Part shown: in pieces, positions 95 through 28,100 of the stretch
Position numbering within the stretch: the stretch's first letter is position 1
Layout of the letters: each line of letters begins with the position of its first letter
From: Beroe forskalii
Lineage: Eukaryota; Ctenophora; Nuda; Beroida; Beroidae
DNA: 64,000 nt
NCBI GenBank assembly: GCA_011033025.1
Contig: WFMF01000020.1
Span: 980,182 to 1,044,181 of the forward strand
Direction of reading: 5' to 3'
Position numbers and translations under genes: made by a program
The notes under the pieces: generated by a model
What the model saw: only the letters and a program-made list of their open reading frames with translations
Told to the model about the DNA's origin: nothing
The model's database searches: none

Positions 95-3000
95 GTCTGT
101 GCTGCAGAACCCAGACAATGCTGGCTTCGGGTGGAAGGACTGCCTGGTGAGGATTGAGAAGCTGAAGATGAGTACAGTAGGGCAGTACAACACCAAGCAG
201 AGCCTTGCTCTGACCACCATCCTCGAGAACAACCATGCAGTGTCTGAGATGTCTGTCAACAGACTGGGGAGCATCAACCCCTATCTGGAGTGAGTATTAG
301 AGAACAGGAGGAAGGAAGGGACATATCATCTTAGTGGCTTACATGTTTAGCTGTAGAGTGGGTATAGTGGCTTTCGGTTCAATTATTTGTTTCATGTCTG
401 ATTTCTCTGATTCTACTAATTGTTTCTAACCATATCTATTTTTCAGGGCTGCATTCACCTTCATCGCTTTCTGCGACAAGGACGACATCTTCAGCATCCC
501 TGTCGATGTCATCTCCAACTTCGTCATGGAGGATCTCCGAACAGATGATGATGTGGACAACACCAAGATGGAGAACACTGTCAGAGCCACCATCAAGAGT
601 TGCCCGCTGTTCCTGATCCCCAAATCAGTGATTAACCTGATGACCATTGAAGCCAAGGATAACATGCCTGCTGATACTGAAGGACTCTTCAAGTCCACTC
701 TCCCACCCAGTCAGACCGATATCCTCCCTGAAATTGGAAACGGATGCATGACTGCAGCTACATCCTCAGACCAGAAACCCAAGACAGCCAGTTCCGATGA
801 CAAGTCCAAGGAAACTGTTGTCATGGCAACTACTAAGCCATCAAGCAGACCTGGCACCCAGGAAAAGGCTGGCAGTCGTCCAGCAACCCAAGAAAAGGCC
901 AAAACCCCAGCAGCCACTCAGGACAAGGCTGCCAGTCGACCTGGGACCCAGGAAAAGCCAGGTAGTCAGCAGCTAACAATAAAAGAGAAGGGAGAGAGTA
1001 AACCAGCAACCGCAGAAAAAGCAAAGACCCCAGCCACCCAAGACAAGCCTGGCAGTCGTCCAGCTACCCAAGAAAAGGCCAAAACCCCAGCCACCCAAGA
1101 CAAGCCTGGCAGCCGTCCAGCTACCCAAGAAAAGGCCAAAACCCCAGCCACCCAAGACAAACCTGGCAGCCGTCCAGCAACCCAAGAAAAGGCCAAAACT
1201 CCCGCCACCCCTGAAAAGGGAGCCAGTCGACCTGCAACTCAAGACAAGCCTGGCAGCCAGCCAACAATCAAAGAGAAGCCAGAGAGCAAACCAGCAACTG
1301 CAGAAAAAGCCAAGACACCAGCTACCCAAGAGAAACCTGGCAGCCGTCCAGCAACCCAAGAAAAGGCCAAAACCCCCGCTGCTACTCAGGATAAACCTGC
1401 TAGCCGACCCCCTACCCAGGAGAAGGCACCAGCAACCCAAGAAAAGGCTGGAAGTCGTCCAGCAACTCAAGAAAAGGCACAGACTCCTGCTACACAAGAT
1501 AAACCAGGCAGCAGACCAGCCACTCAGGAAAAACCCCAAACACAAGACAAATCCAAAGAAGTAACTGGTAGCCGACCACCTACCCAGGAAAAGGCACCAG
1601 CAGCCCAGGAAAAGGCTGGCAGTCGTCCAGCAACCCAAGAAAAGGCAAAAACCCCAGCAGCCACTCAGGACAAACCTGGAAGCCGACCTGCGACTCAGGA
1701 GAAACCAGGAAGCAGACCTGCTACCCAAGAGAAAGCTGGAAGCCGCCCAGGAACGCAAGGAAAGGACGGAGTGGAGGTGAAATCAGCCCCTCCCACCCCA
1801 GAACCCGGACAGAGGGAGGAGATGAAAACAGCTGCTGTGGAAGGAGAGAAACCACCCACTGCTGATTCAGGGAAAGTGAAGCCACTTCACGCCGAACCCC
1901 CTACAGTGGAGGCTGGAGTCTTCAAGCCACTCATGGCTGAGCCTCCCAGTGCCAGGCCTAAGACCCCAGCTGAGAAGGCCAAGGATGCTGCTCAGATGTC
2001 CGGAACCATTGAGAAGCCACCCATTGATGGGCGTAGTTCTGCAGCAGACAGATTGGTGGAGGCTAATCTGTATGGAAACGAGCTAGTCACTGGCGAAGTG
2101 CCAATTATCGTGAGTACAAATAGTTTTTAAGATTAAAATGAGGTTAGTAGGTTGAATATACCTTCCAATTTATTGGGAGTTCCACTCATTATCCAATGCA
2201 CGTCCAAATTGTCAAATTACAACAAAACCAACACTATTCCGGGCAACAGTCCCAATTTAGCGAAAGAAGCTAATGAGTAAATTACAAAGAACAAACTTCA
2301 GTCCACTAGTTGCAGTATTACAAACTGCTCCTTAACCAGAAACTGGAACGATAATGGTCTAAAATATATTTAACCGCTGTTTAATTATAGCTCCCACAGA
2401 AAGAACTGCAACATATTTGAGCTTTTGAGCTATGAATTAGCTCTTTTCGAAGAGCTTAATTAATTCTTTGAAATATTGATATTGATAATTAAGCTTTAAC
2501 AAACCTACCTACACCACAACCTAATAACTTACTCACTATATTTAACAATTTCACAGAAGAAAAACTAAATTTTTCACAGACTCCCTATTATTTCTCAGAA
2601 GCGTGAAGGAAGCGTAGTGATAAACGTAGAAGATACACTCAGAGCTTATGAAGACGAAGTCGAGGCAGTCACCTTCAACAGCAGTGTTCACGGAGCTATG
2701 AGAAAGTTTGCTAGGAATATCGTGCTGAGAAGAGTCAAGGTGAGAAAGGCAGATGAAAAATATATTCGCAAATTTATACTGCGAATGTTCGAAGAAAAAT
2801 GCAATAGCTCTTCCGGGTTCCCGTTTGTGGGCGCCAATTTCCCTTCATTTGAATATTCTTTAAATAAATCACCAAGTTTCATTGATTGCAACGAATAGAT
2901 AAGACATATAGCAACGAATGTAATGACTGTGCAGCAAATGCAAAAGTATAATTTGCATTCGGCATCTCTTTAAGCTTTTTGACCGAACGTGTACGCAATT

Positions 3001-6000: not shown

Positions 6001-7862
6001 TGACAACCCACTTCATGTTACCATGACACCTCAGGTAAAACTCATCCTCTGGTCGCATCAACCCTCACCAATCTGGCGAGTGTGGTTTACACAATGGGAG
6101 ACCTGAAGAACGCCATGACTCTCAACGAGGTAAAGAATCTGCTGCCAAATTCAATTTTGCACTGAATGATTTTGCACTGAATGATTTTGAATGATATATC
6201 ACTCTATATTTAGAAAATCATGTTCTCAATATCATCATATTTACTATTGAGCAATGAGCCATGATTTTCTAATTTTTGTCAGAAATCATTGAAACATTCC
6301 CTTTCAGCAAGCTCTTGAGATCCAGAAGGCTTGCTACCCTGATGCTCACCCTCTTGTGGCAATCACCCTCAAGAACATGGCTATGATTGAGAACGCAAGG
6401 GGTGAGTCAAATATTCAGCTATTTCTCTTGAGCTATTCGAGGTTTATCTCGAGCTATTCAGTGTCAGTTTATATCCTTGATATGACCCCGGCAAAGCCAA
6501 TTTCAGGTAACTTTATGCCACAACCTCAGGTAACCTATGCCAACCTCAGGTAACCTTGGCAACGTAAGGTAACCTTGACAACCTCAGGTAACCTTGACAA
6601 GGCCAAGTCTCTGTATGAGAGAGTGCTGACAATGGAAGAGCTCGTGTACGGAGAACTGCATCCTGCTGTAGCTTCCACCCTCAACAACCTCGCTGACACA
6701 GTTTTCAGATCATCTTTTCCAAAAATTGTTGATCAATGTGCATTCAATGGTCCACACGACCGTATTTTCAGAGTTTGTTTCTGCAATATAAAAACCATGC
6801 ATTTATATCATTTCAAGCCCAAATCTCAGCGACTCTTATTTCTATTTCTTCTTCAGTTTTGGAGCAAGGAGAAACCGCCAAAGCAGCTGTTCTCTTCCAG
6901 AGAGCCATGGAAACCAACGAGATCGTGTTCGGAAAGGATCATCCCGACATCGCCAGGAATCTCAATAACTTGGGCAGGACCTTCAAGGAAATGGGCGACT
7001 ATGATGGAGGAATTTGGCATACGGGGTTCTGATTATCATGATTCGTCAAAATCCAAACCAAGCCATCTGATCGCGTTGGAAGCAACTATGCGAGTCAAAG
7101 TTTCCACCTTTTATTTGGACTTGAGCCAACAAAATTTCTCTCTCCCAGGCGACTACGATGGAGCTAAGTCCAAGTTGACCCAGTCCCTGCAAATGAAGGA
7201 GAAGAGGTATGGAGATGTTCACATCAACCTCGTCCCAACCCTCATGAACCTCGGCGACCTCTTCAACCTCACCAAGCAGCCCCAGAGAGCCAAGGATGTC
7301 CTGACCAGGGCCCTCAAAATCAGCGAAAAGGTGGGTAATTATACTTAGATATTGGGGATTATTACGTGGGTATCATAGGGGAGGGAATGGTGGAATTTTG
7401 GGCTTTCATTTTAGCAGAAAATTAGCAGATTTTCTCTCTATTATCGTTGGTAGCAGTTATGTGACTGACTATAATTTCCTTCTTCTCAGAAAATCGGAAT
7501 GAAGCACCCAGACTCGGCCAAGCTTCTGCGACTTCTCGGAAACAGTTTTTACCTAATGGGTGATCTTGCCACTTCAGAAAAGCTCCTAAACAAGTAAGGA
7601 TCAGCAATTTTAGACTTCTAACATCTTAAAACTTATGAAACAATAACTCCAGAAATTTTCAATTGATTTGTCAAACAAAACTAACTTTTTCCCTTTCCCA
7701 CAAATAAGTTTAGACATTATTTCGATCTCCATTATGTAAATCTATCCCTTCAGATCTCTGGACATTCTCGAAGAAGTGTACGACAGCAACCACCCCTACG
7801 TTCTCGCCACCCGAGCAGACTTAGGAGCATGCGCCAGACCCGTGGGAACCAGGGTCATCTAA
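95..7862 (+). CDS. Large TPR-array protein with STAND-like N-terminal remnant (5' end outside window)
   Basis: Spliced gene; exons by frame and splice signals: 95-289, 447-2109, 2599-2739, 3383-3609, 3813-3967, 4117-4254, 4420-4596, 4864-5046, 5350-5428, 6035-6129, 6308-6401, 6588-6701, 6857-6994, 7149-7330, 7490-7593, 7754-7862 (TAA). About 1,260 residues are present. The first two exons (ending ...FSIPVDVISNFVMEDL) resemble the winged-helix segment that follows the NTPase core of NB-ARC/NACHT (STAND) proteins; that core would lie upstream of the window. Next come a roughly 310-residue PATQEK repeat linker, a helical stretch containing VHGAMRKFARNIV, then about ten TPR motifs of the kinesin-light-chain/nephrocystin-3 style (for example ATTLSNLAM, STLNNLADT, RNLNNLGRTFKEMGDYDGA). 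TPR arrays bind protein ligands; with a STAND NTPase they occur in innate-immune and scaffold proteins, so a role here is inference. Most TPR introns are phase 1 after a Gly codon. Oddities: a one-base frameshift near 4444 and two introns without GT donors (after 6701 and 6994). TPR identity is firm; STAND identity is tentative. Confidence 0.85.
838..1762 (+). repeat. Coding tandem repeat: Pro/Ala/Thr/Gln/Glu/Lys linker
   Basis: Within the large second exon, 9- to 20-residue units of the type PGSRPATQEKAKTPATQDK repeat imperfectly more than twenty times. There is no Cys, Trp, Tyr, Phe or Leu core, so it should be an extended, disordered, highly charged spacer between the winged-helix-like part and the TPR array. 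The DNA units differ mostly by synonymous or conservative changes, which suggests repeated duplication with selection on the peptide. The antisense strand also stays open for 261 codons, but only as a by-product of the repeat. Confidence 0.9.
5011..5088 (+). repeat. Tandem duplication of an exon end plus splice donor
   Basis: The last ~30 bp of the TPR exon ending at 5046, with the start of its donor (ccatggtgag), is repeated about 40 bp downstream, ending ccatggtagc at 5088. The second copy lies in the intron and looks like a non-functional exon tail with a weak donor. Confidence 0.8.
5150..5332 (+). repeat. Intronic minisatellite with CTGGTGTCA core
   Basis: About nine imperfect units of the form AACTGGTGTCAAGGTGAA fill the intron before the exon at 5350. 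The same CTGGTGTCA core recurs in introns of the integrin gene (14.4, 22.3-22.7 and, inverted, 25.7-25.8 kb). Confidence 0.8.
6504..6600 (+). repeat. Tandem array of splice-acceptor/exon-start units
   Basis: Four or five copies of a ~22-bp unit containing CTCAGGTAACCT(TGACAA) precede the TPR exon whose reading frame starts at 6588. Each copy has an AG followed by GTAACC, so each could act as an acceptor encoding Gly-Asn-Leu in the same phase, and each also carries GT. The last copy continues in frame with the TPR. Confidence 0.8.
6702..6856 (+). other. Intron lacking a canonical GT donor, flanked by CAGTTTT repeats
   Basis: TPR coding sequence stops matching at 6701 (...ADT) and resumes at 6857 with VLEQGETAKAA, preserving phase 1. 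Both borders read CAGTTTT, so the cut is ambiguous, but no placement gives GT at the start and AG at the end. The acceptor side has a good pyrimidine tract (tttctatttcttcttcag). Confidence 0.6.
6995..7148 (+). other. Second non-canonical intron, flanked by 16-bp direct repeats
   Basis: GGCGACTATGATGGAG at 6994-7009 and GGCGACTACGATGGAG at 7148-7163 border this segment. Without removal, reading continues into a TGA shortly after. Phase-1 joining of ATG-G to GC-GAC restores KEMGDYDGAKS. The donor would be GC, in poor context, with a normal AG acceptor (ctctctcccag). Confidence 0.6.
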
Positions 7863-15200: not shown

Positions 15201-18200
15201 AATAAACCCCATAGACTCCTACTACCTCATGCCAGAGTTTTACTTTGGATTTTAATCTCCAATATCCCCTGCAGACCAGCGGCCGGGTACCCCATAGACT
15301 CCTACTACCTCATGGACTTCTCTACTCCATGCAAGATGATCTGAAGAACCTGAGACTTTTAGCGGGGAACTTAACGGAGGAGTTCAGGAGAGTCAGCGAG
15401 AACTTTACCGTAGGTTCGTGTCATTAATATTATCTATTGGTTTACCCACAGGTCCAATGTCCAACTAAAATATGATAACGATTACGGTATTCTGAGGGTA
15501 TTCGAGAACTTTGCCATAGGTTTGTGGATAAAAATATCAAAATGTAGTTTCGTGAACTATACCAAGTAGAAACTTTATCTCTATTCTATCATTCAACCTA
15601 AAGAGTCGTCTCATTGACTGAATACTCCGACACAACACAGTCTAATGCACATTCCAATATCATAACGATTTCGGTATTCAACATTGTCCAATAAGGGAGG
15701 GAGTTGACTGTAAACTCACCTACTGATGGGTCTATTTCTATCTACATACTAATTCAGTAATTCAGGAGGGAATCGAACCCGGGATCTTTCGATCACGAGC
15801 CAGACTAGATACCAATACACCAATACTGACCACAAATAATTCAGGTTTTGGGACGTTTATCGACAAGAACATCTCCCCCTTCTCTTTCATGGACGCTAAA
15901 TACCTGAAAAACCCCTGCTATACGGACGACATTGATGTGTTCACGGGGAAGGTAACGATTATGAACAGTTATATACATACTACACTAACACAATAACTTA
16001 CCTACTAACTTACCTACTCAGTAACTGTTACAGTAATTGAGTACACGAGTAAAAGCAATAACTTTTTTTTTTTTTTTATAGTACTTGCTCAATTTTTTTT
16101 AAAATCATACAAAACGGGAGTACAAGGAATTTGCTGAAATAGAGTAATAGAGATGTTTCAGTTTCGGAAAATTCAAATTCCGACTAATTAAGACAATGCT
16201 AGGTAATTAAAACCGAATCTTCTGAATTAAACCTGAATTAAAGCTGAATTAGAGGTGAAAATTCGGAGTAAACACTCTGACTCTTCTCAATAATTATTGT
16301 ACAACAAACACTGCGGACTAGAAAAGTATGCGACTAATTTCGAAACAAAATCCAAATGACATTAAATCAGATGACAGATCAAGGCCAAGGATAATTCCCG
16401 TGATTTGTGGTAGGAATATTACTGAATATGAGTAATATTCAGAATTTCTAAAGATATTGACTGATTGAGTACAGGAAACAGTAGCTTTTGTTGCGAGGAC
16501 ACAGTTTGATCATCGGCGGCCATAGAAAGCTAACAATTGAAACCAAGTCCACAGTTTAGACTTCCAACCCACGCTTGGAATTGTCTATGATTTCCGAATA
16601 AACTTTCTCTGATAACGCAAGATTAAAATTATTGGCGCGGCGTACTCGTAGCTTACCTGTAGAATCCAAAATTGTCGTGGCACTTTTAGTGATACAAGTT
16701 AATATTCAAGTTCAACTGACTAGTCAAAAGACCAAATAAAAATCAAATCATAAGTAACTAACGGCCATGTTTCAGAGGTTGTCCTGTCCCCCTTCCTACT
16801 CCTTCCGGAATGAGATGAGTCTGAAGGAAAGTCTGGAGGAGTTCACTGCAACTCTCGATAACCTGGAGGTAAGGAAGAGGATTACAAAGTTATACCACAA
16901 AGTATAACGCCAAAACCGTGCGAGGGCAGTGGCTTTTGCGCAGCTCTCAAATTTTAGCAGAGTCCTCTTTTCGCGGCCCCTTTTTACAAAGTCCGACAGT
17001 TTCTATCTATTTCAGGTATCCTCAAATATTGATCAGCCGGAGGGAGGTTTTGAGGCACTGCTACAAGTCGCAGCCTGCTCAGAAACCATAGGTAATACAA
17101 ACTTAAAATAGGCGGTCGAGATTGAGAAGTGACAACATAATCTATGTTTACAGGCGTGAATTGATGACGTCAAGTAGCGATAATTGTTGTCTGCGATGGA
17201 GAAAAAAATTGAAGTAGGTACTTCATTAAATTCCGATTTTTAATTCGCATTATTTGAAATTTCCCCCGGCAGGGTTCCGCAAGAAGTCCCGTAAGATCGT
17301 GGTGTACGCGAGTGACGCGGGTTTCCACATCGCGGGGGACGGGAAGTTGGCGGGTTTAGTGAATCCTAATGACGAGGAGTGTGCTCTGAATGGGGCGGGG
17401 TATTACACGCGGGCAGAGAAGCAGGATTACCCTACCATCGAACAGGTAACCATGGGAACACTGCTGTTGTCATGGCAACATGGGGTTAGCATGACAACAC
17501 GCTGTTGTCATGACAGCGGCAACAATAAACTTTCAATTTCATTTTCAGGGCAACTTCATAACCTATGATGAAATGAAACCACAAATATCTCATTCCATCA
17601 ATATAAAAATTAAGTGTAGCTATTATTATCTGATATGTACAAATCAAAGCAGTGAAATACAGCATAGCAGTTTTTAAATTTTCGCTCACTGATCAAATTC
17701 CATTTCTTCAATCAAAACTGCACGGTGTAAAGGCCTATTTTTCCTTGTCTTAATCTTACTTCTGATCAACATAACTAAAGAAATCGTAAAAATAACAAGA
17801 ATCATCGCAGCAATAACCGCTGCCAAAGTAATGATTATCGTATCTTTAGTCTTAATCCTTCCTGCAATATCCCTCAAATCCTTAGAGTTATTCACACACT
17901 CCCCTGGTGCCACTTCAAACCCAGCTGGACATGGGATACACTGTTCCCCATTCCCAAACAGACTCCTATCACACCGGATACACCTGTAGTTGCTCCAGTA
18001 ACGTCCAATAGGGCAGCTTCCACAGCAGGTTGAACCAGCAGGGGCAACTGTGAATTCAGGGCATTTCCTGCAGGCCACTAGAGTACTAATATCAGAGTCA
18101 GAGTTATGGTCCTCAAGTCTGTTTTTATGAGATTTGTTATTGTTGTGGTTATCAGATTTATTGTTTTGGTTTCCATGGTTACTATCAGATTTGTAAGTGA

Positions 18201-21200
18201 CAGCACTACCATTGGAGTAGTGATCAGCCGGACAAATAGCACATTCCTTGGATGCAGTATCCCAGGAGTACCCTGGTTTACAGTTACAAGTCAGAGAGTT
18301 TTTGGGGGAAGTGCTGCCTTCGGGGCAAGGGACACAGCTTCCTATTCCAGAATCATCACCAACCTGACCCAGATCCCTTAGCAACCCATTCTGGTCACTT
18401 AGCAACCCACCCTCATCCCTTAGCAACCCACTCTGATCCCTAGCAGGAGAATTGTAGTAAGAGTTCTCAGGGCATGATATACAAGACAAGAATACCCTTC
18501 TGAGTGGTCCCTCTTGACAAGGCCCCGGTGTCCCAGTGTGGTAAGAACACTGTGTAAGAGGTGGCAGACTCAGAACAAGACATGTCTGAGAAAACCACAG
18601 GGTAGGAGTATTGGGTGTCATCCCAGGATGACCCAGGAGTCCAGGATGGGTCTGATCCTCCTTGGTAAAACCCAGCGTCCAGACAGTTCGCATTGAATCC
18701 GGTGTACAAATCATCGGAGCAGCGTCCCACTGTTCCGGTTTCAAATCCGTTATCTGCGATCAGAAGACCTTCTTCAACCCCCTTAGTCCCGTTCTCACTC
18801 ACTAGATAAAAGTTCCATTTCTGACACACGTGGTGCTGTGTGTCCCAATGGAGTCCACCCGAACAAGCACAGGAAGTTGATCCTGCATCTGATGCTGAGC
18901 CAGCAGGACATTGATGGCACTTGCTGGTGTCAGAGTTCCAAAAGTGATTGCTGGTGCACAGGCAGAATGAAGAGTTTGGGTCTGAAGATCGACCAGAGGG
19001 ACATGAGGCACATTGGCCAAGTTTCTTGTTAAAATACGTGTTTTTCAGGCATGAAAAACAGGATAAAAAGATAAAACTGTTCGTGTTGCAGCCATCTTTC
19101 TTCGAAAAGCTGCAATCCGTGTACGCACTCGCTGAAGGACCGCAGATAAACACATCCAGCGAGAATGAGAAGTTCACGGAGCCCCCTATTCCCCCATAGG
19201 ACCAGGACTCAAACCCTGGGTATCCCATATCCATACAGTTCACTCGAGCAGTGGCATCACTATAGCGGGTATTGCAAACCACTCCTGTATCCCTTCCATT
19301 GCTGACAAGGAGCAATCCTTGATCACGTGATAGTGTGGAATTATCACGTGACAATGTGGAATTGTCACGTGATAGCGAAAAGCTGTACTTTAAACAGTAC
19401 TCTGATACAGCATCCCAGTAGAGCCCTTCTCCAAACAGCCACAGGAGGTGGCCCCAGATCTTGGCACCGATCCAGAAGATCCTGAGACTGTGTCAGCAGG
19501 GCATCTGACGCACTTGGCATCGTGCCCACTCCAGAAGTCCCCCTCCCCACACTCACAGTACAGAGAGTTAGGAGGGGCCGTACTGTCCCCAGGACACTTG
19601 ATACACTGGGTATTGTACGGGGGTTCCAGCAGGTGGAAGTGGTTTTCTGGACAACTCTCACAGGAGATGAATAGGTTGGAGTCAGCATCGCAGTCTGATA
19701 GGTAGCTGGGTTCGGTGAGGTATGTGCAGTCGGAGAGGGATACAGAACCAGGCTTACAGATCACCTTGGAGATGGCAGCACTGTAGTTACCAGGGTTACC
19801 AGGGTGGTTACCATGGTTCCACGAGTCATGATAGGAGTACCCCATGCTGAGACACAGGAAATCAGCGGTGTTCTGAGCGTAGTCGTAGAAAGCATCACTA
19901 GTACACACCGTACCACTGGCATCTCCAAGATTCACTACGACAAGTCCACTGACAGCGGTAACTGACTGGTGAGTTGTTCCTGACATTGTAAAGCTGTACT
20001 CAGGCATTGCTCAGAGGTGAAGTCCCAGGTTTGAGATTGGGGGCAGTCGCACCATCTTGCGCCGTAGAGTGAAGTCGACCCTGTCGGGTTTAGTTTCGTC
20101 AGATTTGGGTTCGATATGAATTTACATCATAGGTTCATGGGTTTTAGTACTACGTAACTCTACCGAAATAAACGAAATTTTCTCTCTTACTAAATTTCTT
20201 TGCTACAATTCTACTCAATTAATGTCAGTTACCTGTTGGACACAGGAGGCAGTCATATCGCACGTTGCTCCAGAAATACCCAGGAGGACAGTAGCAGAAG
20301 TCAGATTCAGGGAGAGAAGTCGTGTTACCAGGACATGGTTCACAGGAGACATTGCTACCATGGACACTGTTGCCATGGACATTGCGAAGATATGTGTTGC
20401 TAGGACACACCGGAGTAGCACATGTCAGAAACACAGAATGTCTAGTCGGAGGGTACAACTGATCGTCGTCATAGAAACCATAACTCACATCCGAAGAGAA
20501 CAGCACCGTACAATCATCTGGAGATGACGCTGAAGTATTACATGAAATGTACAGCACCGCCACAGGATACCGAGATGCTTCCTCCTTCAGACTATAATCT
20601 GATGCGTCTGTAGTCCAGGATTTTACCCCAGAGAAACCCATCTTATTACAAATAACACTCGCTTCCGCCTCACTGAATGTAGCCCCAGGGTAGCAGTTCG
20701 AACACACACTCCCCCTCTCCCTTCCATCGTCTGAGATGAGTAACCCACTACTCACACCGGTAATACCAGCTTCATTGACCAGAGTAAAGGTCCAGGAGAG
20801 GCACTGGAGAGAGTCAAAGTCCCAATACTCCCCTGTTGGACATTCACAAGAATCTGTGGAATCTGCTGATGATTTGGTGGAGTTTCCAGGACATTTCACA
20901 CATTCGCGAGCTTTGAAATTCCAGAAAAACCCGTCTTCTGAACAACTGCAAGTCCTAGAATTGGGTTTTGAGGTTGATCCCATCGGGCATGGGACACATA
21001 TCCCCGCCTCGTTGTCAAAAAACATGTCCGCTGGACATGACACGTAGTGACATGTCAGAATGATGTCCGCAGAGTGATCACGCCCCGCAACATCGCCCAA
21101 ACCGAATTTACAGTCATTATAGCTCTTACTTTGTGTAAAACACTGCATTTTCGTTAGCACAATCGGATAAGATTCTAGAACCGGCCTCCACGACTCATAG

Positions 21201-24200
21201 AACACCAAACTCTCTGTTTTATTCCACGAGACAAACCCCGAGAATCCCATATCCCGACACAAGACCCTCGCACTGTCATCAGTGAAATAATCCCGACCAT
21301 ATTGTGATGAGTCTGATACTGTTCCTGCAGTCCTGCCGTTATCTGCAACCAACAACCCACTCTCTTGATCAGGATTACCGTCCTTATCAACAAGAGTAAA
21401 CTGCCAAAACGTGTTGCAGGGGGGTACCCAGCAACAGAATAATAGCACGACTTTAAGCAGGAGCAAGGAAAACATATTATAATGATAAGGCGGGCTTAGA
21501 CGGAGAGGATATTTAGGTAGAATACCGATATTATGAGTATAATATTGTATTACTCCGAGATAACAGACCCTCAGTATATTGTTATAAACGCACGTGTACT
21601 GGCAAGGGTTATTTACATAGGCCTTCGCAAGTCAAATTATTATCTTCAAATTATTCGTGAAATGCAATACGAGTGCCAAAAAGGCCAAAAGACAACCTCG
21701 GTGCATTGCGAAATAAACCATATGCTATACAAGTGACCTAATACTCCTGCATAATTACATACTTCAAGTGAATTATAATTTAATGAGTGGTTTCATACGA
21801 ACCATAATTTACACCCCCGCGAACGAAAAATAGGCGGGTTTTTCAACAATATTTGGCAGCAATCACACTGTAAATGACGTCATTTCGACCGCCTATTGAT
21901 TCTGAGCGCATATATTAGCGTCAAATAACACCTGAATACATTACTCATAGTGAGATCATCATTTCGACACAACATATGAGCCGGTAAAATTCAAATGTGT
22001 GCGCGCGCGAAAAATATCAAATTTGAGGTCATCAGTTGACAATATTGAAGCCATAACATGATGTCAATTCTAGCTATCCTTTATTAACACATGACCAGGA
22101 TAACATAGTGACATAGTGTCATTGGTTTTCCGAGGAATTGCTGAACTCATCAGATTGTATAAAGTGGGAGTTCGTGGGCTCGTGCCAGCTGTGTTTGATT
22201 TAATTTTAAACGGAGTTTTCAACATGAGATTCATGCACAGAAACACAATCTGTACAAGATGGTTCTGGAAGTTTACAAAGATGGCAGAATGGCCCGACTG
22301 GTGTCAGTGGTACGCCAGACTGGTGTCAATAAAATAAGGTCATACTCATAGTGTCAGACTGGTGTCAGTGATACGTCAGAACTCAGACTGGTGTCAGCGA
22401 TACGTCATAAGACTAAACCAGTGTCAGCGTTACGTCTGACTGTTGTCAGGGATATGTCAGACTGGTGTAAGCGATCGGTCAGACTGGTGTCAGGGATATG
22501 TCAGACTGGTGTCGGCGATACGTCAGACTGGTGTCAATGGTATGCCAGACTGGTGTCAGTGATACGTCAGACTGGTGTCAGTGATACGTCAGACTGGTGC
22601 TGGTGATACGCCAGACTGGTGTCAGTGAATGTCATAGTGTCAGACTGCCATAGTGTCAGACTGGTGTCAGGGCTTATCATTAAGGATTCCATATCCATTC
22701 ATGCGCAATTTTCAAATTTCCCGCAGGTAAATCAGAAGCTGATTAGGAAGAACATAATCCCCATATTCGCTGTGGAGACTGACTTCAAGAACCTCTACAA
22801 GAAACTGAGCAACCAGATGTCTCAGATGTCCCAAGTCGGGGTACTATCCCGGGTAGGTATATCCAAGGTAAACGTATTCTGTGTGCATCGCGATGAATGA
22901 ACTAATGAAAGTTCGATCGAAATACTGATAGTGATGTGTCGATGCGCGGATAGCGATACTGATATGCCGATGCGCGCATTTGGGGGAATTTTGTGTATAC
23001 GAACCTTCATTTTAATTATTCATTCATGAAGATATTATCAATTATGCTTAATTTTCTATCTCTACCTGTATTCCGAATGTCTGTGGCAATTATCCAATAA
23101 TCCAGACTGGCACAGTTCCACTTTCTGGCAGGATTCCGGCAACATCGTGACCCTGGTGAAAGAGGCGCTAGACAGGATCACCTCTACAATAAACCTGGTG
23201 GTCGTGGATGACTTCGGTTACACCATCAAGGTGAGAGGATTAGGGGGGGGGGGGAGAAAGTGGGGCAGTTTTTGGGGCTGTAGGATGTTATCCTACCCCG
23301 TGCGCGCAACGTTCACATTTGGACGCGACGGTTACATTTGATAGCCATCCAGTCAAAACAAATAGACTTTTGGGGGTTTGGGGGGGGGGGTTGAGCCAAT
23401 ATACTGTGGATTACGGTATCATAACATACCATCAATAAATAAAATATAAATGAAATTGAAAAATATATTTTAAATTTCTTGCGTTTCAACAATTCTGGTA
23501 ATTTTGAATTTGAGTTACAATGTGGGGGGGGGGGCTGTTGTGGTACACAAGTATCACATTCACAAAAAATCTCATCGGGGACACCTTTACTTCACTCACT
23601 CATTATAAAAGTGGTGATGTCCCAAGTATATAACGGTGTCAGTTAAAACTGCAATTTTGTGTGCGCGGCGTGAGTTTGCGCGGCGTAAAGATATATAAAT
23701 AACATGTCTGTACGCCGCGCACACAAAACTGCACTGTTAATCTAGAATCGAATGCTGCAGAAATTCTCCCTGAAAATTACAAAGGTTAGAAGAAATTCGT
23801 CTAACAACCAGGACTGATTCTGGGAAAGATTATCGTATCCAGATATCCTTTCTGAACTGAAAAGTGAAACAGTTTCCTGAAAATAAACAGCCTTTATCTT
23901 CAGGTTAAACCGCTGTGCGATGAAAAGATTCCGAATGGCTGCACCAATATTACATACGGTCAGACAGTCGAATTCGAGGTTTGTTGGGGGGGGGGGGGCG
24001 CTTGCATTTTCATCCACACCAAAAAAATTGTTTTGATCATAAATTATTAAATTGAAATTGGAAAAACCTACAATCATTATCAATACCCGCATTTTTTCGA
24101 CGTTTTCAAGAAGATCCATCTGCAAAGTTATACTTAAAGTGGATTATTACTTAATCCACTTAACTTTCAAAAACGTTAAATCAATGTTTAAACACAGGTC

Positions 24201-27200
24201 TCCTTCACGTTGGAAGAGTGTGAGAAGGAGGATAATACACCCTGGAGAATGATATCCATCATTATCCCCGGCTTTGACACCGTCTCTGTCAACGTGACAC
24301 ATCAGTGCCGGTGTCACTGCAGTGACACATCTACAACGGGTTAGAAAATACAAGAATTATCTTCAATTCTTGTTGGATTACACTATGATCGTCATTCAAT
24401 CCAATCGGGGGGGGGGGGGGGATTGATTCGGAAGCTGCCATGTATTACTGAAAAACATTGCTGGTAAAATAGAGGAATAGCACAGGCCATTCTTCCACTC
24501 TACCAGCACTTACCTGAAATAACCTCGTCTCCCAGGAGGAGTGGTCTCCTCCGCAAGCAGCCAATCAGAGTGCAGTAACCATGGGAGCAAGGTGTGCGGC
24601 CAGTGTAAGTGCAGGGACCCTTACTTTGGAGATCAGTGCGAGTGTTCCCCTAGCAACCAGAAGAGCGAGGACCTCTGCAGGAGCCCCCTCTCAGGACTGG
24701 TGAGAAATATACAGAATATCTCTATAGAATTCCCATAATTGTTATCGGGACAAGGTCTGTGGTCTGACTTGCCAGACGTTGCCTGGCCATTATTTAAAAG
24801 GGGGGGCAGGCAGGCAACGTCCGGTAAGGTCTGATTGGGGTCTTCCAACCGCCCTCTTTATAGAAAATATTGCCTACCTTTGTCAGCCTCTGGATTCGTT
24901 GTGTTTCCCTCTCTGGCCGCATTTGAGTGGAGTCTTGTGCGCTATCAGCCAGGTCTTGGTGAAATGCCATTGCTATGAAATGAATATGATGAATGGTAAT
25001 GCTGATGTTATTGGTATGATAATTTACTTGTAAATTCAAATTGGATCTTTTAAGAATAAACTATATTTTAAATCATAATTATGTCCCCACTTTTTTCAAA
25101 AGATTTGTTCAATTATTCTTTTAGTTTTTGTCTTAAGAATTTATCCCATTCCCCCCCCCCCCCCCAAATTTGACTGCCCAATTCTCCCTAAGATCCCCGC
25201 ACCATTTTTTTCAGATTTACCCACAAATTTACTCCCACTTTTTCTTCAGATTTGTTCGCAGCAGGGCCGGTGTGAGTGTGGGAGGTGTGCGTGTAACAAA
25301 CCCCTGACTCCCCGGGGGCTGCCACCCCCTACATCCGGTACGGGGAGTTCTGTCAGTGCTCCAACTACGAGTGTCCCAAGGGGGCCAACGGCAAGGTATG
25401 GAGGGTTCTAAATTTACAAATTTTAGGTGGGGCTAATTGGGACTGTTAGTTAAGAGAAAGCCTGGCATTTCTTTTTATTTTAGGTACTGAGCTAGGGAAC
25501 TATTTTCTATTTTCACGTTCTCGCAAAGTCGTATTATCAGTAGACAGTACCCCCCATTGACAAGCCCTCACATCTCACCCTCAGATCTGCAGTGGGGAAG
25601 GTAACTGTGACTGTGGGCAGTGTCGGTGTAATCAGACCCTAGCAGGGGTGCCTAAAGTAGCAACTACAGCGGGGGAGGCGTGTGACTGTGAGCTGAGCAG
25701 CGAGAAGTGCTTCAACCCTGAGGCGGACAGAAGTGAGTTGACACCAGTATCAAGTTGACACTAAGTTTTGTTTGACAGCAGTTCACTCACGCAGTTTTAC
25801 AAAAATTCCTGGCAGAATTGACACCAGTTCAGCTTGACACCAGTTTATTTCTGAGATCAGTTTTGAATTTAAGTTTACTTTGATGCCATTCTCCATCAGA
25901 TTCGTTTTTCGGCAGACAGCCGTGTGGAGGACCAGACAGAGGGGAGTGCCGGTGTAACCGGTGCCACTGCAAGCCCAACTACAGGTGGGTAAAGGCCAAA
26001 ATAAGAACCAAAAGTGTGCCAATAACCCTAACACATGGCAATATAGTTTCTTTTTAGAATTTTAATTCAGTTTACCGTTTGACTTTCATTCAAAATTTCT
26101 ATGATAAGAGTTCTCTGATCTGTACAAACTATAAATCATATCCTAATTCAGAGGTCGGTACTGTGAGCAGTGCATATTCTGTGGACCCCTCAGATGCAGT
26201 ACTCATGTCAAGTGTATCCTGTGTCAAGCAGTCAAGTGAGTTACAAAATAATTTTCATCACATCAGACCAATCAAAACAATCAAAGACAAAACTTTAAAC
26301 CAGTGAAAACAGTAAACACACTTTCACTCAAGATTTCAACCAATCAAAACACCAACCAATCCTTCCTCAGGATGAGGAAAGCAGCCACGCCCCTGGACAC
26401 CATAGACTGTAAGAGGTTGTGTGATGGAAATGGGGTGAGGGAGTACAGGGAAGTGTCTCCCACTGTCGATGCTGCTAGAATCAGGGAGAACGGTAATGGC
26501 TACGATGTGAGTAAGAGGGAGGGGGAAGAGATTCGGGGATGGGGACTTCAAATCCTCCCATGGGATTGGGAGTGGGAGGGGACCGGGCGTATTCTGGGTA
26601 GGGATTAGGACTTGGTGGGGAGAGAACTTATAAAATATGCCTTGAGAGTGAGAGTCACTATGAAAACTCTCTTGGTCTAAATATTAAGCAACAAATGATC
26701 TCCTAATGAAGCGATTCTCAGGAGTTCCCTTGTCACATTTCCTAAATTTCAGATAGAATCGTGCGGACAGAACCTGGACAAGGAGCACGGGTGCAGTGCC
26801 ACGTTCTACATAGTCAGCCCTTCCAACATCTCCAGTGTGGACCAAGTTAACGCTAACATAACCGTCCTTTACGACGGAAAAATAGACTGCGACGAATTCG
26901 TGAGTCATTATGCCATATAAGGAATAATTAGAGAGGGAGTTTTGATTATGCTCATGCTCTCACAGTTGTCAATTTCATTAAAAACACAACAAATCAAATA
27001 TAAACTCGCTTTCCCTAAAGATATTTGATTATTTGCATATATCTCATGACCGGGCGACACTCGACAGGAGCAGCCTTATTATAAAGCCCTATCTCCAACT
27101 CATTTCATATTTTCCGATCTGTTACAACACTCATAATATTTTTCTGATGATGGCGGATCTGTCCCTGTCCAGAACCATCTCAATTTACCAGGCGTTAGTG

Positions 27201-28100
27201 TGGATTATTCTGCTTATTATCGGGGCTATTGTGTTGCTGGGAGTGTTCGTGCTGGGATTCTGGAAGTGCTGGACTCTCTACACGGTAAGATGTGCACTAA
27301 AGTTTCATAAGGGGGGGGGGCAGAAGAGAGGGAAATTAAGGGTTTAGTGCACGGTAAGATGGGCACTAAAAATTTCAAAAATGTTCAAAAATTACATTAA
27401 TTTAGAGGTAAGGAAGAGTGGGGGAATTTTGGGGTGAGGAATTAGGAAATTTATGGGGAGATGAAATGGGATTAGTAAGTGGTTCAAATCGGATTTGATA
27501 TCACCCCAATTTTCTCCTTATCTAGTTATTTTCAGTCAAACCATTAGGCCACTGACTCAAAAGCAGGACCCCATTTGTTTCTCAGAAATTAGGGCTCGCA
27601 GCATATAACAGTGCCGATGTTTTATTAGATTATCTTTGATAACAAGCTCTTTTCTAGAGTCTCTTAATACTTCTGCAAAAGCCGATGTACATGCATATAA
27701 CGTAACATAATTTCATTACTTTCGGTAATTTGGGATAATTAACGAGGACTTGATAACACTAATTGATTATCAGGATAGGAAGCTTTACGCTCAGTTCGAG
27801 GATGACATGGCTTCGGCTAAGTGGAACACCACACAAAGGTTATTGGATTAAACTGATAATTTGAATGCATGCATTTTCACAATTTATGAAAATATTATTG
27901 ACAGTCTTATCAATATGTTTCAATTAACCAAATTGAATGAAATTTAAATATGAAAATTTTCAGTCTAAATTCGAAAATTTTCAGAAAAATGGGGACAATA
28001 AAGTTTTCACAATATTTCTGTTATTTTCAGCCCGATCTACAAGCAACCTACCACCCGACACAATAACCCACTGTTCTCCAACGACTACGAGGTGCAGTGA
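12201..28100 (+). CDS. Integrin beta chain (initiator exon not found)
   Basis: Exons: 12201-12307, 14263-14378, 14731-14824, 15275-15413, 15845-15951, 16776-16868, 17016-17091, 17273-17445, 22727-22852, 23132-23230, 23904-23978, 24198-24339, 24536-24699, 25250-25395, 25585-25732, 25900-25984, 26152-26235, 26371-26506, 26753-26899, 27173-27284, 27774-27838, 28031-28100 (TGA); about 835 residues. Order: end of signal peptide (VLLLYAMS), PSI domain (CDQC...CAWC), hybrid strand, beta-I domain with YYLMDF[SYS] MIDAS, GFGTFIDK, NIDQPEGGFEALLQVAAC and AGDGKLAGLVNPND, then four I-EGF modules, beta-tail, one membrane helix (WIILLIIGAIVLLGVFVLGF) and a 40-50-residue tail with DRKLYAQFEDD and NNPLF. Integrins link matrix or neighbour cells to actin and signal through talin and kindlin. 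One-base slips at 15323, 25310-25318 and 27173 break the raw frame; restored frames match the family throughout. Several donors are GTT-type (15414, 23979, 24340, 27839). A 5.3-kb intron hosts an antisense gene. Confidence 0.93.
12970..13020 (+). repeat. tRNA-derived SINE fragment
   Basis: CGAAAGATCCGGGGTTCGATTCCGG contains a pol III B-box (GGTTCGATTCC at 13000-13010) with a T-arm-like stem. A second copy on the other strand at 15763-15832 shares the CGAAAGATC..GGGTTCGATTCC string. There is no intact cloverleaf. Confidence 0.55.
13387..13470. repeat. AATAGGCGGT inverted-repeat element (MITE-like) with CRE
   Basis: Starts AAATAGGCGGTCCCATGACG, ends ACCGCCTATTTTTCGCGCG. The termini are inverted, and an inner TGACGTCATT and TTTGGCAGCGC-type string (here reversed) match copies at 21817-21920, 57294-57392 and 59159-59254. 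About 85-100 bp; no coding capacity. Confidence 0.85.
14379..14475 (+). repeat. Short minisatellite directly after a splice donor
   Basis: Imperfect copies of GTGAGTGGTGTCAAAGTGA(CAACAA) begin at the integrin donor GTAAGTGGTGTC itself, so the donor sequence forms part of the repeat unit. It shares the GGTGTCA core with the 5.2- and 22.4-kb arrays. Confidence 0.75.
15111..15313 (+). repeat. Tandem copies of an intron-exon junction in the integrin beta-I domain
   Basis: AGTTTTACTTTGGATTTTAA...CCCTGCAGACCA occurs at 15147-15192 and 15236-15278. The exon-start strings AGACCAGCGGC (15111, 15273) and CCCATAGACTCCTACTACCT (15208, 15290) are also repeated. Only the last copy joins correctly to RPAAGYPIDSYYLMDF; the earlier ones are decoy acceptors with partial exon. 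Confidence 0.85.
15763..15832 (-). repeat. tRNA-derived SINE, minus strand
   Basis: Read on the minus strand it has an A-box-like TTGGTGTATTGGTATC, an anticodon-arm-like CTGGCTCGTGATCGAAAG and a B-box GGGTTCGATTCC. The anticodon stem does not pair well, so it is a degenerate tRNA-derived element rather than a gene. A further A-box-only remnant (TTGGTGTAATGGTATTCTAG) lies on the minus strand at about 14209-14262. Confidence 0.6.
17686..21475 (-). CDS. SRCR / ephrin-receptor-like Cys-rich repeat membrane receptor, nested in the integrin intron
   Basis: Two exons, 21475-20233 and 20009-17686 (TGA); about 1,190 residues after allowing for two slips. A signal peptide (MFSLLLLKVVLLFCCW) leads into five repeated pairs. 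Each pair is an SRCR-like module (pattern GLLVADNGRTAGTV..., then ARVLCRDMGFSG, then a late xxC...YxDC) and a cysteine-rich module of the GCC2/GCC3 (ephrin-receptor-like) kind (CPxG.T..PNS..C.C..G..W....C..CP). After the last module and two Asn/Ser/Lys- or Leu-Arg-Asp-rich inserts come a membrane helix (IIITLAAVIAAMILVIFTIS) and a ~30-residue basic cytoplasmic tail. SRCR modules bind microbial or self ligands in many animals; that role is inferred here. The frame slips by one base near 19424-19429 (AAGGG run) and by two near 18548-18556 (CA repeat); on both sides the module pattern continues. It lies wholly in the 17446-22726 integrin intron, antisense to it. Confidence 0.88.
21817..21920. repeat. 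AATAGGCGGT inverted-repeat element with CRE
   Basis: CGCGAACGAAAAATAGGCGG ... TTTCAACAATATTTGGCAGC ... AAATGACGTCATTTCGACCG ... CCTATTGATTCTGAGCGCAT. Same subfamily as the copies at 57294 and 59159. It lies just upstream of the SRCR gene start, within about 450 bp, so it could affect that promoter. Confidence 0.85.
22291..22675 (+). repeat. 22-bp minisatellite (GTCAGACTGGTGTCAGYGATAC)n
   Basis: About sixteen units with small changes (CAGACTGGTGTCAGTGATACGT being the commonest form) lie in the integrin intron 50 bp before the acceptor region of the exon at 22727. Units are direct, contiguous and without spacers, so this is a minisatellite and not a CRISPR array. Confidence 0.9.
23641..23738. 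repeat. GC-rich hairpin element (GCGCGGCGT family)
   Basis: Outer arms AACTGCAATTTTGTGTGCGC and GCGCACACAAAACTGCACTG, inner GCGCGGCGT/ACGCCGCGC, and an AT centre (AAAGATATATAAATAACATG). A longer relative lies at 31346-31483. Confidence 0.85.
24764..24826. repeat. Inverted repeat around CAGACGTTGCCTGG
   Basis: ACTTGCCAGACGTTGCCTGG and the near-complement GGCAGGCAACGTCCGGTAAG flank a short AT/G spacer. The core resembles inverted repeats at 37485-37550 and 49607-49658. Confidence 0.65.
25733..25850 (+). repeat. TGACACCAG repeats at a splice donor
   Basis: From the donor GTGAGTTGACACCAGTATCA onward, about four imperfect TTGACACCAGT units occur. These are the reverse complement of the CTGGTGTCA minisatellite core. 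Confidence 0.7.

Follow-up and report, generated by a model that had tools for sequence, protein, structure and literature searches.

A candidate SRCR/TNFR-like receptor gene lying antisense within an integrin-beta intron of the ctenophore Beroe forskalii

What kind of gene lies on the minus strand inside an integrin-beta intron of the ctenophore Beroe forskalii, is it intact, and does its place mean anything? The question arises from the final 64 kb of contig C248 (WFMF01000020.1; this whole stretch of 64,000 nucleotides is the window), in which an earlier note had described a cell-surface receptor gene at 17686..21475, with SRCR and ephrin-receptor-like cysteine-rich modules in alternation. 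Having searched the 216-Mb assembly, we think it rather probable that this gene, which has come to lie in an integrin intron, belongs as a divergent member to a small subfamily of type I receptors that cross the membrane once and combine SRCR with TNFR-like modules.

The gene itself is present, but not as the continuous coding region that had been drawn. Its coding span, 17689..21475 on the minus strand with a stop codon at 17686-17688, was delimited from open reading frames (ORFs) and from co-linear alignment to a full-length paralog on contig C704. The ORF listing resolves 17686-21475 into four long frame pieces, which rules out one full-length ORF; the interruptions are a 152-bp intron and three changes of frame, near 20004, 19433, and 18550. 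Aligned with the intact, 1097-residue C704 protein, the four pieces are co-linear (38, 36, 45, and 31% identity) and cover nearly the whole of it, with breaks only at the intron and the frame changes. Judged from the alignment, this co-linearity is more than chance. The pieces hold 88 cysteines, against 88 and 90 in the two intact paralogs.

The predicted protein consists, in order, of a signal peptide, five SRCR units, TNFR/ephrin-receptor-like cysteine modules, one transmembrane (TM) helix, and a 25-residue tail, all on the minus strand. The predicted signal peptide (MFSLLLLKVVLLFCCWVPPCNTF, 21407..21475; hydropathy segment 1-23, score 2.09) is followed by SRCR unit 1 (21050..21406, placed by PF00530 and alignment) and two TNFR/ephrin-receptor-like cysteine modules (20801..21049). 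SRCR unit 2 (20420..20794) is followed by cysteine modules that run as far as the intron (20233..20419, by alignment to C704); the cysteine-module pattern occurs in the first piece at residues 381 and 412, and the second occurrence spans the GT-AG intron (20081..20232), beyond which the remainder of that module, GSTSLYGARWCDCPQSQTWDFTSEQC, could be aligned with the paralog (20004..20080) up to the first frame change. SRCR unit 3 with its cysteine modules occupies 19435..19998 and stops just short of the second frame change, and SRCR unit 4 with its modules (18824..19387) falls in the piece that is 45% identical to C704 and includes a short SRDNST repeat (19322-19375 by Tandem Repeats Finder, TRF). 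SRCR unit 5 is divided by the third frame change, its N-terminal part lying at 18551..18817, as placed by alignment, and its C-terminal part, with the C-terminal cysteine-rich region, at 17980..18549, where there are low-complexity inserts (TRF, 18372-18445). The TM helix (17764..17841, hydropathy maximum 3.05) and the cytoplasmic tail, RSKIKTRKNRPLHRAVLIEEMEFDQ (17689..17763), complete the protein; with one hydropathy TM segment and then 25 residues, the single membrane helix and short tail of the earlier note hold. So does the alternation of SRCR units with cysteine-rich modules, but not the pairing of one module with each SRCR, for units 1-4 each precede two by pattern search.

The proposal of five SRCR-like units is borne out by profile matches together with the alignment to the paralog. 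PF00530 (curated cut-off 26.1 bits) matches three of the four window pieces, two of them above the cut-off: the first piece, with units 1 and 2, matches in two stretches (E = 1.7e-12, 48.0 bits), unit 3 gives the second match (E = 2.1e-6, 28.4 bits), and unit 4 the third, which falls below the cut-off (E = 3.9e-4, 21.1 bits). The fourth piece has no PF00530 match, and unit 5, straddling a frame change, is unmatched on its own. The same profile scores 135 bits over five stretches in C704 and 110 bits over three in the paralog designated C278-B. PF15494 (SRCR_2), which had also been suggested, fared differently: neither the four window pieces nor the ORFs of C704, C278-B, and a relative on contig C913 matched it at E ≤ 0.01. 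A profile built from the paralogs matches eight distinct PDB sequences, among them CD5L, SCARA1, SCARA5, neurotrypsin, and DMBT1.

For the cysteine modules, the GCC2/GCC3 assignment was supported in part. PF07699 (cut-off 23.1 bits) matches the last window piece below its cut-off (E = 8.9e-4, 19.4 bits), and the ELAPOR1 TNFR-like profile PF23091 scores slightly better there (E = 2.2e-5, 24.7 bits), also below its cut-off of 33.2 bits. In the paralogs PF07699 scores 32.8 bits (C704) and 23.8 bits (C278-B), both above the cut-off, and PF23091 scores 43.7 bits in C704, above, and 27.9 bits in C278-B, below. The modules thus share the CP..(S/T)....C.C repeats of the Ephrin_rec_like/GCC2-GCC3 and ELAPOR1 families, and C704 exceeds both profile cut-offs, whereas the window copy stays below both. 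In predicted structures the SRCR parts were too poor for use, and the cysteine part showed low-Z similarity to the cysteine-rich domains of TNFR1, TAS1R, and EphA2. Neither a kinase domain nor an Eph ligand-binding domain was matched by Pfam in the receptor.

A genome search with the exon-1 protein returned 38 matches, comprising the window gene, the full-length copies C704, C278-A, and C278-B, the differently built C913 relative, and SRCR domains of other genes. C704 and C278-B are intact single ORFs of 1097 and 1105 residues from the methionine, and C278-A is a full-length copy with one frame change. Over aligned codons, C704 and C278-B are 57% identical, and the window gene is about 42% identical to each. 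The ratio of nonsynonymous to synonymous divergence (dN/dS, Nei-Gojobori) is 0.14 between C278-B and C704, where dS, at 2.3, is near saturation, and 0.47 between C278-A and C278-B; for the window gene dS is saturated and the ratio not computable. Its identity to C704 by codon position is 0.56/0.62/0.35, with third positions the most changed. As read from the aligned codons, this is what a sequence maintained as coding for a long time would show; it is uninformative on the most recent period. The C913 relative (L041:3402-4910) has one SRCR match nearby and seven TNFR/ELAPOR1-like stretches, followed by a hydrophobic stretch recognized by eye; by its sequence it would be another mix of the same modules. 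Two peptide patterns aimed at bacterial or archaeal relatives yielded 32 pattern stretches, none of which was confirmed, and we rejected a minisatellite common to the regions upstream of the window gene and C704, the units being 22 bp and 24 bp long with different consensus sequences.

The 152-bp intron sets the window gene apart from its intact paralogs. C704 and C278-B have an open frame without a gap at its position, and the spliced window frame, CPTG-STSLYGARWCDCP, is in register with CPEG-ATSQYGARSCQCP of C704; from this comparison the intron appears either to have been gained by the window copy or to have been lost by the other copies. Its sequence has a single genome match, itself, so a mobile introner was rejected for want of a second copy in a genome search that skipped very common words. 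The intact paralogs, as single open frames, differ from the tandem SRCR loci on C193, C214, C389, and C525, where the SRCR matches lie mostly in separate frames of about 80 to 230 residues. On the question of a possible retrogene origin, we note the single ORFs of C704 and C278-B and the short SRCR frames of the tandem loci.

Is the window copy still a working gene? Its three frame changes, at the positions given above, could mean that it is a young pseudogene of a real receptor family, with genuine frameshifts, low-complexity insertions, and a degraded cation site, a possibility that we take seriously but consider unlikely. The repeats at 18372-18445 and 19322-19375 would fit such decay, and stop-free pieces are still compatible with a pseudogene that is young. 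The acidic residues of SRCR domains bind cations (PMC7043408), and the acidic site CDD...ED is kept in unit 4 of C704 and C278-B, whereas unit 4 of the window copy, the only unit scored, reads CNTR...NTNS, having lost the CDD/ED residues. Set against this, the number of cysteines is kept, and the four pieces still span nearly all of the paralog. The SRCR cysteine framework is retained in three of the five window units, namely 3, 4, and 5 (the last read across two frames). Units 1 and 2 have no cysteine before the HSAD/TRHS position, and unit 1, which reads GTVS at the start of the framework, also lacks the first cysteine. In the SRCR family the two cysteines lost from unit 1 would pair with each other, and their absence is consistent with removal of one whole disulfide and not with random decay.

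The frame changes themselves have counterparts in conserved genes of the same assembly. In the neighboring integrin gene, MDFS and YSMQDDLKN of the MIDAS exon are read from different frames; the two matches to an HSP70 gene on C419, which share 14 bases, also differ in frame, one giving NIFGR and the other KSVNPDEA. The assembly thus seems to contain indels in conserved genes. Since both of these genes are also frame-changed, we prefer assembly error to decay for the three changes in the window gene as the likelier cause, if an unproven one. Against this preference, three frame changes in 3.6 kb are many, and both intact paralogs have none. The indel controls are two inspected genes and not a measured rate.

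That the gene lies within an integrin-beta gene is evident from the exons on either side. The VWA exon upstream (17272..17445, plus strand, start approximate) matches positions 130-189 of PF00362 (E = 1.6e-19) and is 50% identical over 56 aligned columns to human ITGB1; the VWA exon downstream (22727..22852, plus strand, end approximate) matches positions 180-228 (E = 8.4e-7), so that the two ranges adjoin with ten positions overlapping. The upstream exon ends in PTIEQ with GT at 17446, and an AG precedes the next exon, which starts at 22727, opens with VNQKLIRKNIIPIFAVE, and keeps the phase; this defines a host intron of 5281 bp (17446..22726, plus strand, donor and acceptor both read). The whole receptor gene lies between these two successive exons on the opposite strand, and the antisense nesting that the earlier note had proposed is thereby upheld. 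A chimeric join is conceivable in an assembly that seems to bear indels and in a window at a contig end, but the integrin exons on its two sides are consecutive, correctly ordered, and matched in phase, and the gene is about 42 kb away from the contig end; we regard nesting by artefact as extremely improbable. Elsewhere in the host gene, the MIDAS exon (15291..15415, plus strand, ends approximate) carries its frame change within the DxSxS motif, and TM-like and cytoplasmic-tail-like stretches lie at 27195..27830 on the plus strand (tblastn: 27195-27266, E = 4.3; 27759-27830, E = 0.22), matches that are weak alone and were accepted from their order and sequence. Judging by these stretches, the 3′ end of the host gene seems to have been reached. 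Two repeats were seen along the way: a partial second copy of the MIDAS exon start at 15201-15315, with CATAGACTCCTACTACCTCATG present twice, and a minisatellite with a main unit of 22 bp at 22362-22663, whose end is some 60 bp short of the integrin acceptor site.

Whether this position has consequences is a separate matter. Mutual regulation of the receptor gene and the integrin is one hypothesis: transcription of the minus strand across the intron, and perhaps also across the exon at 17272-17445, might interfere with integrin expression. The antisense nesting itself would permit this, and on the minus strand past the stop codon the first AATAAA/ATTAAA hexamer is an ATTAAA at 17244, beyond the integrin exon, so that a putative 3′ untranslated region could overlap that exon. 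Yet poly(A) hexamers are weak evidence, other signals exist, and at least the C278-A paralog lies outside an identified neighbor; we hold mutual regulation to be quite improbable. A bolder form, in which receptor and host integrin would be a reciprocally regulated pair, antisense transcription that reaches the integrin exon switching the cell between adhesion and recognition states, strikes us as more improbable still. Because at least C278-A (methionine at L038:4102) sits beside, and not inside, an identified neighbor, nesting in a host gene does not seem to be a rule of the receptor subfamily; this copy adjoins a complete RBM8A-like gene on the other strand (L038:3191-1873), whose span excludes nesting within it. 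The flanks of the other paralogs offered little: a weak alpha/beta-hydrolase match beside C704 (L040:2586-2822, E = 0.0043, below cut-off) was the only neighbor signal there, no neighbor gene was found in the six C278-B flank ORFs scanned singly, and a pooled scan of 30 of the 85 paralog-flank ORFs added a third family, MAGE, in one ORF (E = 0.0092). The nesting is probably incidental, and the place in the integrin intron may well be a chance result of duplication or retroposition. Only a demonstrated regulatory link with the integrin would give it significance.

What, then, might a member of this subfamily do? Known multi-SRCR proteins include the membrane-bound CD163, CD5, and CD6, and DMBT1, which is largely secreted. 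Like the first three, the window receptor combines several SRCR units with a single TM helix, and like DMBT1 it carries several SRCR units in one protein; unlike all four, it has TNFR/ephrin-receptor-like cysteine modules between the SRCR units, and its intact paralogs are encoded, unlike known multi-SRCR proteins, in one open frame. The layout of the subfamily, with a signal peptide, five SRCR units with paired cysteine modules between them, a single TM helix, and some 25 residues of tail, suggests that the protein would most likely act as a multivalent surface receptor. Its SRCR units would bind polyanionic, microbial, or self ligands, with the cysteine modules serving as spacers. The short tail, in which no signaling domain is recognized, suggests uptake, adhesion, or partner-mediated signaling. 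The immune or self-recognition role put forward in the earlier note is, by analogy with the SRCR family, an inference. It is possible, although we would put it only tentatively, that the receptor functions in adhesion, between cells or to matrix, or in allorecognition, in place of microbe binding. This would be compatible with the anatomy, a long multi-domain ectodomain on a short tail, and the SRCR protein CD6 binds a self protein, CD166 (PMC7043408); four full-length members in the genome are nevertheless few for a hypervariable recognition family.

SRCR genes are reported to be expanded in a sponge and a sea urchin (PMC10855680), and in the ctenophore Mnemiopsis 55 SRCR-containing genes with unusual domain partners are described, 12 of which changed on Vibrio re-exposure (8 of them upward) and none on first exposure (PMC11797021). 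The partner domains named in a figure legend of the latter study include TNFR and protein kinase (STYKc), so that for Mnemiopsis leidyi exact layouts can be compared by legend only. The words ephrin and GCC2 are absent from the main text of PMC10855680 and from the account of cnidarian SRCR proteins in PMC5119243, as far as the portions available go, and in the corresponding portion of PMC8242945 ephrin is named in the references only. Within the literature searched on SRCR with GCC2, ephrin-rec, and TNFR, we found no description of five repeats of an SRCR and two cysteine modules followed by a TM helix, and a search for nested genes turned up no paper on this locus. With this receptor, the expanded SRCR repertoire of an early-branching animal gains a regular layout of SRCR and paired TNFR-like modules that includes intact single-ORF members, and the subfamily offers defined targets for studying the ligands of such receptors.

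Other SRCR-bearing genes came to light in the same assembly. Nine loci (L042-L050, on C377, C426, C580, C669, C231, C691, C336, C503, and C289) belong to a single-ORF gene family of about 1180 residues in which an SRCR-like domain at the N terminus is combined with LDLa repeats and a rhodopsin-type seven-transmembrane domain; six of the nine have one long ORF and three are broken, and Pfam (E ≤ 0.001), applied to two of them, found SRCR, LDLa, and 7tm_1 in L042 and LDLa and 7tm_1 in L043. SRCR repeats on adhesion G protein-coupled receptors have been reported in the sponge Amphimedon (PMC4302439). A single ORF at L053:2935-4965 joins SRCR to a protein kinase domain. On C214, the tandem SRCR cluster (25-38 kb) and a second integrin-beta gene (79.8-82.5 kb) lie about 42 kb apart, perhaps by chance. 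In the window, a repeat-rich ORF of 566 residues (430-2130, plus strand; for example PGSRPATQEKAKTPA) has no Pfam match at E ≤ 0.001, and an ORF at 6554-7348 on the plus strand has TPR-repeat matches (TPR_12, E = 1.1e-16).

The mitochondrial contig, C1134 (13,339 bp), carries CYTB and a very derived COX1 read under genetic code 4. A stretch of 1.7 kb of it yielded no tRNA but is too short to count. The sole ATP6 match lies on C176, which is nuclear, and its frame lacks the TGA codons that COX1 contains. Fast mitochondrial evolution and the absence of mitochondrial tRNAs, ATP8, and ATP6 are given as common to the five ctenophore mitogenomes then known (PMC6991124). Because COX1 is derived and the ATP6 match lies off the mitochondrial contig, the COX1 and ATP6 pattern is, by comparison with that account, likely ctenophore-like.

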